From a virus, in the IMG/VR virus record IMGVR_UViG_3300044846_000835, positions 1 to 26,849 of that record: a stretch of DNA of 26,849 nucleotides. One strand, written 5' to 3'. The notes below the pieces were generated by a model. It was not told the DNA's origin and made no database searches. It worked only from the letters and a program-made list of their open reading frames with translations. The position numbers were made by a program, and so were the translations under genes. Numbering within the stretch: the first letter of the stretch is position 1; every line of letters begins with the position of its first letter. Positions 1,641 through 8,114 of the stretch are shown one piece after another.

Positions 1641-1867
1641 GCTGCAAACTCCTTATCAACCCATGCCTGACGGCGAGCATCAGCACGTTTATTATATTCA
1701 TATACTTCGTATTCATCAGCGGACAAACAGGCATCAAGATGGCTTTCGCTGGCATAGGTAAGAAATCCATTATCTAACCGCAAAAGCATATTGCCGTCAG
1801 TTTCCTTAACCAGATGCCAAGCGCCGTCCGCTTTTACCTTCACATAGTCTCCAACAAATATAATCAT
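1637..1867 (-). CDS. Hypothetical early protein
   Basis: 76 residues, not recognised. The start MIIFVGDYVKVKADGAWHLVKE reads like a small beta-barrel segment (VGDYVKV...W), followed by a charged helical tail (YEYNKRADARRQAWVDKEFAA). GGAG lies seven to eight bases before the ATG. The 5' flank of about 60 bases contains two short GC-rich hairpins (1887-1922) that would sit in the mRNA just before this gene. Confidence 0.65.
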   Translation of the reverse strand: MIIFVGDYVKVKADGAWHLVKETDGNMLLRLDNGFLTYASESHLDACLSADEYEVYEYNKRADARRQAWVDKEFAA

Positions 1868-1886
1868 TTTATTTCTCCGTATTGGC

Positions 1887-1922
1887 GAGGCTTGGCCTCT
1901 GGTGAATAGGGGCCGAAGCCCC
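1887..1922 (-). other. Two intercistronic GC-rich hairpins, one with a UUCG loop
   Basis: Read leftward, GGGGC-TTCG-GCCCC (1909-1922) forms a five-pair stem with a cUUCGg loop. It is followed by GAGGC-CAA-GCCTC (1887-1899). Neither is followed by a T-run, so they are not simple terminators. They lie between two genes of the same operon and may protect or separate messages. Confidence 0.45.
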
Positions 1923-1929
1923 CGTTAAA

Positions 1930-2133
1930 TTAGATTTTGTTATAACCGTGCTTACGCAAGTCGTTAATCATCCAAGTAGCGCCATTAACGATAGCAGAAA
2001 TTCCGCCTTTTACTTGAGTTTTAGTGCGGCTGCTAAAAACAAAGTCGCCATCGGCATCAACTGCTTTCCAGCCTTGCCATGTCTTAGCGATAGTGAAGCC
2101 TTTGTATTTTGTGCTTTGTGATACTGCTGGCAT
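1930..2133 (-). CDS. Hypothetical protein, first gene behind the folded leader
   Basis: 67 residues, not recognised. KYKGFTIAKTWQGWKAVDADGDFVFSSRTKTQVKGGISAIV suggests a small beta-sheet domain (a GF-x-I...GW-x-A...F-x-S-x-T pattern) followed by a helix. The ATG at 2133 sits one base after the closing stem of a structured leader with AAGGAGA as ribosome site, and its own promoter lies at 2180-2208. It is therefore the first gene of a separately controlled leftward transcript. Confidence 0.65.
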   Translation of the reverse strand: MPAVSQSTKYKGFTIAKTWQGWKAVDADGDFVFSSRTKTQVKGGISAIVNGATWMINDLRKHGYNKI

Positions 2134-2173
2134 TATCAGTCTCCTTGTTGGCGGGGAAAATCCCCTTGCTGAT
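2131..2173 (-). promoter_or_regulatory. Folded 5' leader, copy 1 (leftward)
   Basis: Read leftward, the message would begin near ATCAGCAAGGGGA. Outer arms ATCAG (2169-2173) and CTGAT (2135-2139) pair and enclose the inner hairpin GGGGA-TTT-TCCCC and the ribosome site AAGGAGA. The start codon follows one base after the outer stem. A second copy with the same outer stem, inner hairpin position and ribosome site lies on the other strand at 7449-7490. Confidence 0.6.
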
Positions 2174-2179
2174 ACTCAT

Positions 2180-2221
2180 TCTATAATAGCAGTAAATTTA
2201 AAAGAAAAGCGTTTTTTTCAT
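2180..2221 (-). promoter_or_regulatory. Leftward promoter with AAAAAACGCTTTT element
   Basis: Read leftward: ATGAAAAAAACGCTTT (2206-2221, identical to 7402-7417), a -35-like TTTTCT (2203-2208), 17 bases, then TATAGA (2180-2185). The predicted start is near the ATCAG of the leader. The -35 is weak on its own, but the layout matches the stronger rightward copy at 7415-7443. Confidence 0.55.
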
Positions 2222-2413: not shown

Positions 2414-2924
2414 TTTCCAAATTGCTCCTTAGGTCTGCCAGTTCCTCTGCCGTGACATATTCAATAAGCGGCACATAGTCGCGCTTGTGTATCTGAATGA
2501 GATATTTTGCCCTGCCTATTCTCCGCCGCCTTCCGTAACCTTCCTCTTGCACTACCGTATCAATCTCGGCTGGCGTTGGCATAAACTTGCAAGTGCGTAA
2601 CAGTTTAATGAATGCACTGCGTAAATCCACCAAGGGATAAATGCGAAGGGTTATCCAATAAAGTTCCAGACGTTCCGTTTCTTCCTGAATGCTGCGCTTC
2701 TGATTTGCAGTCGCCAATGATAGTTTGGCAATCATCACTTCAACCTGTTCGCGCTCTGGCATGGGTGGCCGTGCGGCATCCACAAACTGTTGCAATACCT
2801 CTGCGGTTTTAGGCCCAATCGTCGGCAGATGGTCGCCCATTAGAAGTTCGTCTAGCTTGGCTGGCAAATACGGCTCTAACCATTGGGTTGGTTGGCTCTG
2901 TTGGCTTGGCACTATTTCCTGCAT
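2394..2924 (-). CDS. Putative lambda P-like helicase loader
   Basis: 176 residues from ATG 2924, which has AAAGGA seven bases upstream. A longer frame to 2954 has no comparable site. Residues about 55-120 are helical (EREQVEVMIAKLSLATANQ, then YWITLRIYPLVDLRSAF), followed by a CKFMPTPAEI motif. A PxPAE turn after a long helix recurs in phage replication P/helicase-loader-type proteins. The C-terminus is basic (GRRRRIGRAKY). It directly follows, and overlaps by 116 bases, the O-like gene, as expected for a replication initiator/loader pair. The family match is from motif and position only. Confidence 0.5.
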   Translation of the reverse strand: MQEIVPSQQSQPTQWLEPYLPAKLDELLMGDHLPTIGPKTAEVLQQFVDAARPPMPEREQVEVMIAKLSLATANQKRSIQEETERLELYWITLRIYPLVDLRSAFIKLLRTCKFMPTPAEIDTVVQEEGYGRRRRIGRAKYLIQIHKRDYVPLIEYVTAEELADLRSNLEIGTKHK

Positions 2925-3507
2925 TTTGCGTTCCTTTCGGCTCGTAAATATCAAGCCAGCCGTTAATTGTCGAACGGTCTAGCAATTCCGCTATGTCATG
3001 ACCATTAGCCCTTATAGCATCTAGCTTGTTGATTGCCCTATTGGTTGCTCTATCAGTCAATGGGCGTTTGCGCTGCTTCCGCATATCTACCCAACCCTGC
3101 CAAGCATCTATTGGCATCCAATCGGGAAGCGGCTCTTTTATACACTTGGTGTTTAATTGATGTATAATTAATGTATTGGGTGCATCTGGTGCACGGGTCT
3201 CATGCATCTGGTGCACGGGTGGTGTGTCTTTAATGCACGGGTGCATTTCATGCACTGGTATGTTTATCCAATACTTATTGCCCTTGCCAATGACTTCTTC
3301 ACGGCGAATAAACTGCGTTTCCTCAAGCGACCTAATCGCCAGTTGGACTGCCCTTTTTTTCAATGATGATTTTTTTGCAACGCGCTCAATGGAAGGCCAG
3401 CATAAACCTTCGTCGTTTGCCCAATCTGCCAAAGCTAGTAGAACAAGCTTTTGCGTAGATGATAGGTCTTCCCTATCCCATACTGCTGTCATTAATTTTA
3501 TACTCAT
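2809..3507 (-). CDS. Lambda O-like replication initiation protein with internal origin repeats
   Basis: 232 residues. Residues 1-80 form a winged-helix domain of the phage replication protein type: a SSTQKLVLLALADWANDEG helix, CWPSIERVAKKSSLKKRAVQ recognition helices, then a wing ending GKGNKYWIN. Residues 85-125 are a linker. Residues 128-193 (LPDWMPIDAWQGWVDMRKQR, TDRATNRAINKLD, STINGWLDIYEP) match the C-terminal domain of many phage replication proteins. The linker is encoded by iteron-like repeats (3181-3259) and an AT-rich tract, the layout of the lambda origin. The start ATG overlaps the stop of a 15-codon leader frame. The 3' end overlaps the P-like gene by 116 bases. Confidence 0.75.
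   Translation of the reverse strand: MSIKLMTAVWDREDLSSTQKLVLLALADWANDEGLCWPSIERVAKKSSLKKRAVQLAIRSLEETQFIRREEVIGKGNKYWINIPVHEMHPCIKDTPPVHQMHETRAPDAPNTLIIHQLNTKCIKEPLPDWMPIDAWQGWVDMRKQRKRPLTDRATNRAINKLDAIRANGHDIAELLDRSTINGWLDIYEPKGTQNAGNSAKPTEPTNPMVRAVFASQARRTSNGRPSADDWA
3141..3259. other. Candidate lambda-type replication origin
   Basis: An iteron array (3181-3259) is followed, in the direction of the O-like gene, by an AT-rich tract (3151-3178). That tract contains the inverted repeat TTAATT-N7-AATTAA (3153-3171), and next to it lies a near-consensus DnaA box TTATACACT (3138-3146). In lambda the origin has the same order inside gene O: iterons, then the AT-rich unwinding region. Function here is inferred from layout. 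Confidence 0.6.
3181..3259 (+). repeat. Iteron-like 18-bp direct repeats
   Basis: TGCATCTGGTGCACGGGT occurs exactly twice (3181-3198 and 3203-3220). A third unit at 3225-3242 keeps the second half (TGCACGGGT) at the same 22-bp step. A degenerate fourth (14 of 18 matches) is at 3242-3259. A 22-bp step is close to two helical turns. Because 22 is not a multiple of three, the copies are read in different frames of the O-like gene, so selection is on the DNA, not on the peptide. Confidence 0.75.
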
Positions 3508-3551
3508 AACGCAAACCCTTGCGTCATAGTTCTGTGGCGTGTATTACTCAT
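3504..3551 (-). CDS. Possible 15-residue leader peptide coupled to the O-like gene
   Basis: An ATG at 3551 with AGGAGG ten bases upstream opens a frame MSNTRHRTMTQGFAL whose TGA overlaps the O-like start (ATGA). The O-like gene's own weak site (AAGGG) lies in the loop of a six-pair hairpin, ACGCAA-GGGT-TTGCGT, so leader translation could open it. This is a prediction from sequence only. Confidence 0.35.
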   Translation of the reverse strand: MSNTRHRTMTQGFAL

Positions 3552-3586
3552 TACAGCGATGCCTCCTGTTACTAGGCGTTGTTAGA

Positions 3587-3624
3587 GCGGGTTGAGTGCC
3601 TTTCCTCTCTTGGGCACTCCCCGC
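3587..3624. other. Long perfect hairpin with 2-base bulge between replication leader frames
   Basis: Plus-strand arms GCGGG (3587-3591) + TT + GAGTGCC (3594-3600) pair with GGCACTC (3613-3619) + CCCGC (3620-3624): 12 pairs, a two-base bulge and a 12-base loop. No T-run follows on either strand, so it is not an intrinsic terminator. It would form in the mRNA just before the O-like gene. Confidence 0.55.
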
Positions 3625-3638
3625 TTGCTCTTTATAAT
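3610..3638 (+). promoter_or_regulatory. Rightward promoter candidate for an antisense RNA
   Basis: TTGGGC (3610-3615), 17 bases, then a perfect TATAAT (3633-3638). It reads against the replication operon and points into a 120-base stretch ending in an intrinsic terminator. The -35 matches only three of six positions. A variant of the shared element (AAAAGCGATTTTT, 3656-3668) lies just downstream of the predicted start. Confidence 0.45.
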
Positions 3639-3712
3639 CGCATTCCGTGATTTATAAAAGCGATTTTTATCAAGCATTGACCGCTGATACGCTGATAGCG
3701 TATTAACGGCAT
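3632..3712 (-). CDS. Possible 26-residue small protein
   Basis: An ATG at 3712 with AAGGAG seven bases upstream opens MPLIRYQRISGQCLIKIAFINH... ending at 3632. The ribosome site sits in the loop of a six-pair hairpin (TTGGTA/TACCAA, 3712-3730). The candidate antisense RNA would cover the whole frame including its ribosome site. There is no family match. The strong ribosome site is the main support. Confidence 0.35.
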   Translation of the reverse strand: MPLIRYQRISGQCLIKIAFINHGMRL

Positions 3713-4326: not shown

Positions 4327-4359
4327 TTGATAATAAAAAACGCTTTTAATCTTATGCAA
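4327..4359. promoter_or_regulatory. Overlapping divergent promoters with central AAAAAACGCTTTT element
   Basis: Rightward: TTGATA (4327-4332), 17 bases, TCTTAT (4350-4355). Leftward: TTGCAT (4354-4359 complement), 18 bases, TATTAT (4330-4335 complement). The two promoters share almost the same DNA, and the element AAAAAACGCTTTT (4335-4347) lies in the spacer of both. A protein bound there could block both. Confidence 0.55.
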
Positions 4360-4400
4360 ATTGATTACAAGGGGTTTGGCAAATAAAAGGAGATACCACA

Positions 4401-4961
4401 ATGCCAGTGCATAAAAAAATCAATGAGGCACGAGTTGCCTTCCATGCTTTACCGCTTAAAAAGTCAGGTCATAACACGTTTGCGGGTTACAAATATTTTG
4501 AGCTATCGGACTTTGTAATTCCCGCCCTTCGCATTTTTAACGATGTCGGGTTGTGCGCTATTATCAGCTTTTCCGAAACCACAGCTTCAATGCACATTGT
4601 CGATGTTGAGGATGGCACGCAAGTTATCATTCACAGCCCAATGGGTTCAGCAAATCTTAAAGGTTGCCATGAGATACAAAACATTGGTGCTTGCGAGACA
4701 TACAGCACCCGATACCTCTGGACAGCCGCGCTTTGCATCGTCGAGCATGACGCTTTAGATGCTACGACAGGCAAGAGCGAACCAGCGCCACGGGATAAGT
4801 TTATTAGCAAAGCGCAGTTTGATGAATTGCAAGCCTTAGTAGACAAGACCAACACCGACAAAACCTTGCTCTGCAAACATTATAAAATCGACTCACTTGC
4901 GGAATTGCAAGAAAGCCGCTTCGATATAGTCAAGTCTACATTAGAAAAGAAGCTGGCATGA
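4401..4961 (+). CDS. erf: ERF-family single-strand annealing protein
   Basis: 186 residues. Residues 22-120 hold the ERF family core: SGHNTFAGYKYFELSDF, then IQNIGACETYSTRYLWTAAL and EHDALDA, close to the usual GA-x-x-x-YA-x-RY-x-L-x-x-x-L-x-I-x-x-x-x-D-x-DA. ERF proteins pair complementary single strands in phage homologous recombination, working with a 5' exonuclease. Here the exonuclease is the next gene, overlapping by four bases. Residues 134-186 form a separate helical tail (KFISKAQFDELQALVDK) common in phage annealing proteins. The ribosome site AAGGAG precedes the ATG. First gene of the rightward operon. Confidence 0.9.
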   Translation: MPVHKKINEARVAFHALPLKKSGHNTFAGYKYFELSDFVIPALRIFNDVGLCAIISFSETTASMHIVDVEDGTQVIIHSPMGSANLKGCHEIQNIGACETYSTRYLWTAALCIVEHDALDATTGKSEPAPRDKFISKAQFDELQALVDKTNTDKTLLCKHYKIDSLAELQESRFDIVKSTLEKKLA

Positions 4962-7401: not shown

Positions 7402-7443
7402 ATGAAAAAAACGCTTTACATATAATTATGGCCTTTTTATAAG
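7402..7443 (+). promoter_or_regulatory. Rightward promoter with AAAAAACGCTTT element
   Basis: ATGAAAAAAACGCTTT (7402-7417) runs into -35 TTTACA (7415-7420, five of six), a 17-base spacer and -10 TATAAG (7438-7443, five of six). The predicted start is at about 7450, the first bases of the folded leader. The 16-base upstream block is identical to the leftward promoter at 2206-2221. Confidence 0.75.
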
Positions 7444-7448
7444 AGGGC

Positions 7449-7487
7449 ATCAGCAAGGGAATAGTCCCGCCATTTAGGAGACTGATT
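7449..7487 (+). promoter_or_regulatory. Folded 5' leader, copy 2 (rightward)
   Basis: Outer arms ATCAG (7449-7453) and CTGAT (7482-7486) enclose the inner hairpin GGGA-ATAG-TCCC (7457-7468) and the ribosome site AGGAGA. The start codon follows one base later at 7488. The outer stem, the CAAGGG lead-in, the CGCCA after the hairpin and the AGGAGACTGAT end are shared with the leftward copy at 2131-2173, while the inner loop differs. Confidence 0.6.
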
Positions 7488-7694
7488 ATGAAACTTACAA
7501 CCAACCAAAAAATAGTGCTGACGCAAGCTTGGCACAGCGGCGACGAACCACAGGACTTTGTTGCACGGTGGGGCGTGACCGACAGTGGAATAACAAGAGC
7601 AGTTAATGCTTTAATTTCCCTTGGCCTTTTGACGCAGGACAAAATTATAACCGAATTAGGTGAAGAAGCTTTTTGGCAAATTTCCAGAATTTAG
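7488..7694 (+). CDS. Small winged-helix-like protein
   Basis: 68 residues. MKLTTNQKIVLTQAWHSGDE, then FVARWGVTDSGITRAVNALISLGLLTQ and ITELGEEAFW, is compatible with a MarR-like winged helix: a helix, a recognition helix ITRAVNALISLG, then a wing. Not assigned to a named family. It is the first gene behind the folded leader copy 2, so it is under the same kind of control as the gene at 1930-2133, to which it shows no evident protein similarity. Confidence 0.7.
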   Translation: MKLTTNQKIVLTQAWHSGDEPQDFVARWGVTDSGITRAVNALISLGLLTQDKIITELGEEAFWQISRI

Positions 7695-7984: not shown

Positions 7985-8114
7985 GGCAAAACAAGCAGCC
8001 CCTATGGGCAAGACCTACCGTGTATCATCTGACAGCGCATGGCCGCTTAGAGGCTTAGACGGCAAGACGTATGCCGAAAGACGCGCAGAGCAAGAAAAGG
8101 CACAGAGCAAATGA
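7977..8114 (+). CDS. 45-residue hypothetical protein
   Basis: ATG 7977 lies inside the end of the previous gene, and the stop at 8112-8114 overlaps the next start (ATGA). The protein begins MIKAKQAAPMGKTYRVSSDS and ends in a charged helix (AERRAEQEKAQSK). Not recognised. Tight overlaps on both sides support that it is translated. Confidence 0.5.
   Translation: MIKAKQAAPMGKTYRVSSDSAWPLRGLDGKTYAERRAEQEKAQSK

Follow-up and report, generated by a model that had tools for sequence, protein, structure and literature searches.

The nearest published system to the leader described here is the start-associated sequence (SAS) of cluster K mycobacteriophages, a brief conserved sequence built around a Shine-Dalgarno core and located a few nucleotides 5' of start codons (PMC3203893, PMC12699233). 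SAS has the consensus GGGATAGGAGCCC, occurs in 11-19 copies per genome and is essentially missing from the host; a role in translation initiation has been proposed for it, and a hairpin in the ESAS repeats is unsupported according to the authors (PMC3203893, PMC12699233). Stem-loops and Shine-Dalgarno sequences are also known to protect mRNA (reviewed in PMC7509114). A further point of comparison is the put RNA of phage HK022, an element of ~70 nt with two stem-loops that binds RNA polymerase and has no tie to a start codon (PMC9378689).

The element that we compare with these systems lies in a complete virus record of 26,849 bases (the whole stretch of DNA analysed, hereafter the window), for which megablast against 50,697 phage records gave no match. 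A sequence-only reading had described two copies of one promoter and 5'-leader module on opposite strands. Both are present, at 2131-2221 (-) and 7402-7490 (+), and the observation proved correct and understated. The first module heads a leftward operon starting at 2133 (-) and the second a small-gene operon starting at 7488 (+). The window also contains a replication-initiation gene (2809-3507 (-); PHROGs replication initiation O-like) and a recombination operon (+) with ERF at 4401 and YqaJ at 4958. Each module consists, in order, of an A-tract, a -35 hexamer, a 17-nt spacer, a -10 hexamer, ATCAGCAA, a 4-5 bp hairpin, GCCA, AGGAGACTGAT and the start codon. A repeat search returned the inverted repeat pairs 2198-2221/7402-7425 (88%), 2131-2164/7457-7490 (76%) and 2154-2173/7449-7468 (85%). 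The 16 bases said to be common to both copies, ATGAAAAAAACGCTTT, were found at 2206-2221 (-) and 7402-7417 (+), and the reported 17-nt spacers separate TTTTCT from TATAGA and TTTACA from TATAAG. Neither promoter was listed by a consensus scan because the scan accepts only -10 hexamers whose sixth base is T.

In copy 1, on the minus strand, the A-tract (UP-element-like AAAAAAACG) and the -35 hexamer TTTTCT occupy 2203..2221, and the -10 hexamer TATAGA, assigned with column conservation in 66 relatives, lies 17 nt from the -35 at 2180..2185. The leader (2131..2173) runs from the inferred transcription start at ~2173 to the start codon and begins ATCAGCAA; it contains the hairpin GGGGA-TTT-TCCCC (2165-2153), GCCA (2152-2149), AAGGAG (2146-2141) and ATG (2133-2131). 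The cargo gene (1930..2133 (-)) encodes a protein of 67 aa that had no match in Pfam or PHROGs, and is also found in L060, there with a different promoter and hairpin. In copy 2, on the plus strand, the A-tract and -35 hexamer TTTACA occupy 7402..7420 and the -10 hexamer TATAAG, 17 nt on, 7438..7443. Its leader (7449..7490; inferred start ~7449) likewise begins ATCAGCAA and contains the hairpin GGGA-ATAG-TCCC (7457-7468), GCCA (7469-7472), AGGAG (7476-7480) and ATG (7488-7490). The cargo gene (7488..7694 (+)) encodes 68 aa with a weak MarR-like winged-helix match, under the curated cut-off. Comparison of the two cargo proteins showed them to be unrelated, in agreement with the earlier reading.

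A third copy of the core, promoterless and intergenic, was located at 1862..1900 (-), preceding the gene at 1637-1867; it comprises the hairpin GAGGC-CAA-GCCTC, GCCA, ATACGGAG and ATG (1867-1865). The GAGGC/GCCTC hairpin is retained before the same gene in L103, L106 and L147. Directly 5' of this internal leader, at 1902-1930 (-) in the window and in L103, L106, L152, L157, L161 and L163, is a second GC hairpin, GGGGGCTTCGGCCCC, with no T-run; lying between the cargo and the next gene, it is perhaps an attenuator or a barrier at an mRNA end. The replication-initiation gene has its own leader (3500-3660 (-)), with a different, larger and stronger hairpin, GCGGG/GAGTGCC...GGCACTC/CCCGC (fold z = -2.87).

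Like SAS, the leader is placed a few nucleotides before the starts of several unrelated genes, which for SAS are non-structural genes. It differs from SAS in its usual copy number of 2-3, in its covarying hairpin 5' of GCCA and in the promoter fused to first-position copies. The SAS 13-mer GGGATAGGAGCCC, allowing up to 2 deviations, is absent from the leader core (hairpin-GCCA-N4-GGAG), and the leader is therefore not an SAS member, although it may work like one. It also resembles the E. coli ompA-type 5'-UTR stabiliser in having a hairpin close to the predicted mRNA 5' end and a strong Shine-Dalgarno sequence. Unlike that stabiliser, it is a mobile phage element of unrelated genes, with a conserved GCCA, a fixed distance from hairpin to Shine-Dalgarno sequence and intergenic use as well. 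In the window, no Rfam family scored above its gathering threshold with covariance models, and a relaxed search gave chance-level matches only; the open-licence PubMed Central papers searched do not describe the leader.

A pattern scan for the leader in viral contigs returned 100 stretches. Because such a sample fixes the letters queried, a separate one was taken by ERF protein similarity alone, and these 80 contigs were searched with a covariance model (R1) built on the inner hairpin only. Of those with sufficient length, most show ERF at 5 kb between a minus-strand copy at 1.4-2.8 kb and a plus-strand copy at ~8 kb, which is the layout of the window, left (-) and right (+) of ERF. Near-complete records gave 1-4 matches each, typically 2-3, the weakest being chance sites in coding DNA. 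The outcome named with the sequence-only reading as refuting it, a lack of further compensated copies in relatives, did not occur: they carry many copies, with compensatory changes. Phages, cultured or named, that are related through ERF, terminase or portal (L184-L186, L191-L193) do not carry the element. The strict pattern, run over 84,980 bacterial and archaeal genomes, matched twice, both times chance-like, although it demands CAAGGG and AGGAGACT, so that variant prophage copies could escape. About seven pattern matches in coding DNA (L025, L042, L077, L091, L095 and others) were dismissed as chance. A first short-leader blastn search against phages gave matches of low significance only, those inspected lying mostly within coding sequence, and plasmid matches had in common the AAGGAG...TGACATG context or less.

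The inner hairpin had been predicted to be an RNA structure whose pairing is kept as its letters diverge, and this was borne out: four of its five pairs change on both sides, for example from GC to AU. Among 57 leaders of fixed geometry, 98.9% of paired cells can pair compared to 87.4% when the 3' letters are shuffled and at most 65% in slid registers. Members of this set were required to have 5/3 geometry or no hairpin, and clearly unrelated sequences were excluded, a selection that flatters the percentage paired and leaves the two-sided changes unaffected. RNAalifold chose the same helix unprompted in the fixed-geometry set; on a mixed-length alignment, in which MAFFT put no gaps in the loop, it returned no structure. 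Folded one at a time, the window leaders do not stand out (z = -1.49 and -0.47), so that the case for structure comes from comparison and not from folding energy. In the ERF-selected contigs we also collected 121 unique sites with GCCA 3-5 nt before the GGA of a start codon, requiring nothing upstream. A hairpin of at least 4 pairs lies directly 5' of GCCA at 99 of them, compared to 157 of 4852 other Shine-Dalgarno sites. The covariation identifies the inner hairpin as a genuine RNA structure; its nearness to the 5' end depends on a transcript end predicted from the -10 box.

The outer arms behave differently. ATCAG and CTGAT do end both leaders in the window, as the sequence-only reading had reported, but they are not a conserved stem across relatives. 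That reading further supposed an RNA switch, in which temperature, a protein or a metabolite would open the outer stem. The stem can form in both window copies and in half of the distinct leaders, and some two-sided changes occur at the outer columns of alignment A1; these are few, in an alignment that was assembled by sequence and combines leader types. However, of 100 distinct promoter-type leaders only 50 have both arms, 11 have one and 39 have neither. In the armless leaders, other bases do not take over: the 5' end pairs with the start-codon region no better than in shuffled sequences (2.49 compared to 2.52), and conserved pairing that would sequester the Shine-Dalgarno or start region, as in an RNA thermometer or riboswitch, was not found. 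CTGA after AGGAGA is a common context in unrelated genes: AAGGAGACTGACATG or a close variant is found without a hairpin leader at unrelated genes of Alphaproteobacteria and phages, and CTGA is thus ordinary context of a ribosome site and start site. The inferred transcript start lies at about ATCAG, and this arm is therefore the initially transcribed sequence. With 50 unrelated cargo families, a single common ligand is also unlikely. Together, these comparisons make such a switch scarcely credible and suggest that the outer pairing is incidental.

What is conserved is a core of hairpin, GCCA, 4 nt, GGAG and start codon. Of 122 leaders, 97 have a 4-nt gap from GCCA to GGA, and 107 have GGA 10-11 nt before the start codon. 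Promoterless intergenic copies with GAGGC/GCCTC hairpins keep the same hairpin-GCCA-Shine-Dalgarno arrangement. The conservation of GCCA is the best argument for a specific reader and hints at a specific recognition event. One form of this would be a translational operator, at which a dedicated phage or host RNA-binding protein represses or activates all cargo together. Such a protein would explain why conservation of GCCA and of the CAA 5' of the hairpin exceeds the needs of a generic stabiliser and why the distance from hairpin to Shine-Dalgarno sequence is fixed, and the 2-3 copies typical of a genome would permit co-regulation. Against it, the loop is free to vary in sequence and length even within one phage (TTT, ATAG and CAA in the window), and we found no candidate protein. 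We consider a translational operator unlikely.

The promoters fused to first-position leaders are also alike. In 66 canonical leaders aligned on the hairpin, the upstream sequence reads TTGAAAAAAR-N-RC-TTTACA, spacer, TATAAG, 5-6 nt, ATCAG. The proximal subsite of the E. coli UP element has the consensus AAAAAARNR (PMC2801614, citing Estrem 1999), and AAAAAAACG matches it in both window copies, 1 nt 5' of the -35. Across the 66 relatives the A columns are mostly 85-98% conserved (73% for the sixth A) and the R positions ~80%, so that the A-tract directly 5' of the -35 fits AAAAAARNR together with its allowed variation. We strongly infer that the A-tract is UP-element-like and a putative contact for alpha-CTD. 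The sequence AAAAAACGCTTT has three exact copies in the window compared to 0.04 expected, and none of 100 shuffles reached three. The third (4335-4346 (+)) lies 5' of the ERF operon, without a hairpin leader, and is kept in relatives; the leader is thus not general to the early genes of the window phage. The region upstream of the ERF operon (4335-4400 (+)), AAAAAACGCTTTTAATC...TTACAAGGGGTTTGGCAAATAAAAGGAGATACCACAATG, is nearly invariant among relatives and has a poor -10. A further A-tract promoter, AAAAATCGCTTT with 1 mismatch and TATAAA 20 nt on, lies at 3657..3668 (-), 5' of the replication-initiation gene.

In other phage groups, the leader recurs behind quite different promoters (TTGAC or similar), and the portal, terminase or primase of these contigs fall in different PHROGs families. 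A variant hairpin, GGGC-AATGAA-GCCC, was found in 27 stretches. In several cases (L036, L055, L083, L223-L244 and L215 2426-2600 (-)) a palindrome, AGGACC-N-GGTCCT or TAGCGCCATTGGCGCTA, lies between the -35 and the -10, and is probably the operator of the early regulator of these phages. The sole cultured example is Paracoccus phage vB_PkoS_Pkon1, found with a second blastn query (E = 4e-5), in which TTGACA, a palindromic spacer and GATGGGCAATGAAGCCCGCCAGCAAAGGAGAGATCGACATG precede gene p72 and an XRE regulator adjoins. Under the leader model, its transcript would be expected to start a few nucleotides 5' of GGGCAATGAAGCCC. This copy suggests that leader-bearing phages infect Alphaproteobacteria; the host of the window phage itself is unproven, since its capsid resembles those of Acinetobacter, Oceanospirillum and Paracoccus phages.

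The presence of AAAAAACGCTTT at three early promoters, and of AGGACC-N-GGTCCT-type palindromes between the hexamers in the other groups, would fit a module in which a phage regulator has its DNA operator in the hairpin palindrome or in the A-tract. The arms and spacing of the hairpin nonetheless differ among the copies of one phage (12-13 nt), and it is tied to the Shine-Dalgarno sequence in a single orientation; the A-tract fits a UP element, varies as R-N-R and bears on the promoters rather than on the leader. A DNA operator is, on balance, quite unlikely.

The genes behind the leaders are of many kinds. Clustering by blastp placed 50 unrelated protein families behind first-position leaders, another count giving 55 cargo families, and none of 10 cargo examples scanned reached the Pfam cut-off. 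In 75 locus pairs the promoters are at least 90% identical and the first genes unrelated; many pairs show related cargo with dissimilar promoters, a soft number because one large cluster is loose. Homology returns within 1.5 kb 3' of the cargo in 74 of 82 testable pairs with near-identical promoters and unrelated cargo, in several from the very end of the cargo. For example, L004 and L014 have promoter and leader in common and different first genes (MKISFG... and MKLVHK...), followed by 89% identity over 471 nt that begin with the base directly after the stop. L103 is arranged as promoter, leader and MTYDIP, and L105 as promoter, leader, MTVTRN, promoterless leader and MTYDIP. The tandem leaders of L105 lie at 8045 and 8218 (+), the second promoterless, and the one extra gene between them compared to L103 is likely a recent cargo insertion.

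The ends of the cargo are standardised as well. The stop codon overlaps the next start as ATGA in 75 of 126 first-position cargo genes and in 25 of the 50 first-position families, and 11 families end in GCAGCATGA. This sequence occurs 51 times in the 690 kb of ERF loci, where about 5 are expected. Unrelated cargo genes, for example those of L014, L037, L071 and L009 (-), finish identically, with GGAG-TATGCAGC-ATGA (EYAA, stop), a common coupling signal. More than one position is occupied by 6 of the 39 ERF-group families.

The retention of promoter and leader at a position as the cargo changes, together with the 11 families that share an end, raises the alternative that the leader is mainly a DNA recombination junction guiding cargo exchange, with RNA structure secondary. 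The compensatory changes lose DNA identity yet keep pairing, although a site acting by homology alone would have no use for this, and a gene relocated to an internal position takes the internal-type hairpin. We regard a mere junction as very unlikely.

The leader sits at gene starts, has promoterless copies and joins different promoters. These properties point to action at the RNA level, and they argue against both a DNA operator in the hairpin and an antiterminator like HK022 put, in which the nascent leader RNA would bind RNA polymerase where each of the two early operons begins. The likeness to put is one of position, both being RNA elements that head two early phage operons: the leader lies just 3' of the promoters of two diverging operons, a placement that resembles that of putL and putR (PMC9378689). 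However, it is ~40 nt long with a single 4-5 bp hairpin where put has ~70 nt and two stem-loops, putR lies ~270 nt from its promoter, and the leader hairpin is always locked at one distance from a start codon and found at internal gene starts too. Antitermination of this kind is highly improbable.

We therefore favour, as the probable reading, a constitutive early-expression socket: a sigma-70 promoter with a UP element, joined to a short RNA leader, into which single small genes are exchanged. In this model, the sigma-70 promoter and its alpha-CTD-binding, UP-element-like A-tract would, as we strongly infer, drive strong transcription from about ATCAG. The ~40-nt leader RNA would then fold the 4-5 bp hairpin, a structure shown by the covariation, 8-9 nt from its 5' end, with GCCA, a strong Shine-Dalgarno sequence and the start codon at a fixed distance 3' of it. 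Most likely, the leader would raise translation initiation, guard the mRNA 5' end, or both, so that any following gene may be well expressed. Comparison of loci shows unrelated small genes exchanged one at a time in the space that separates the leader from the next gene, in many cases by way of an ATGA overlap, and the swapping agent would possibly be the phage's own ERF/YqaJ recombination system. Some points count against the socket: its hairpin is short and, in the window clade, begins ~8 nt from the predicted 5' end, which is not ideal for a 5'-end protector; the model does not account for recognition of the conserved GCCA; and the ERF operon has no such leader. A broader proposal is that the leader is a new RNA family of several aquatic phage groups that probably infect Alphaproteobacteria, which with the standardised gene ends would form a plug-in system with one socket per early arm. 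Hairpin-GCCA would be read by a specific factor, be it the ribosome platform or a host or phage protein, that would give all cargo the same timing and level. We put this forward only tentatively and consider it rather doubtful.

The leader flags, by sequence alone, the slot for swapped small uncharacterised genes that are probably expressed early. Such slots are a natural place to seek host-takeover and anti-defence genes in uncultured phages, and the covariance model and patterns locate them. A hairpin that covaries and keeps a constant spacing to the Shine-Dalgarno sequence also makes a clean test case for the effect of an upstream hairpin on translation initiation, and the leader gives the start-associated sequences of the mycobacteriophages, themselves unexplained, a counterpart that bears a hairpin.
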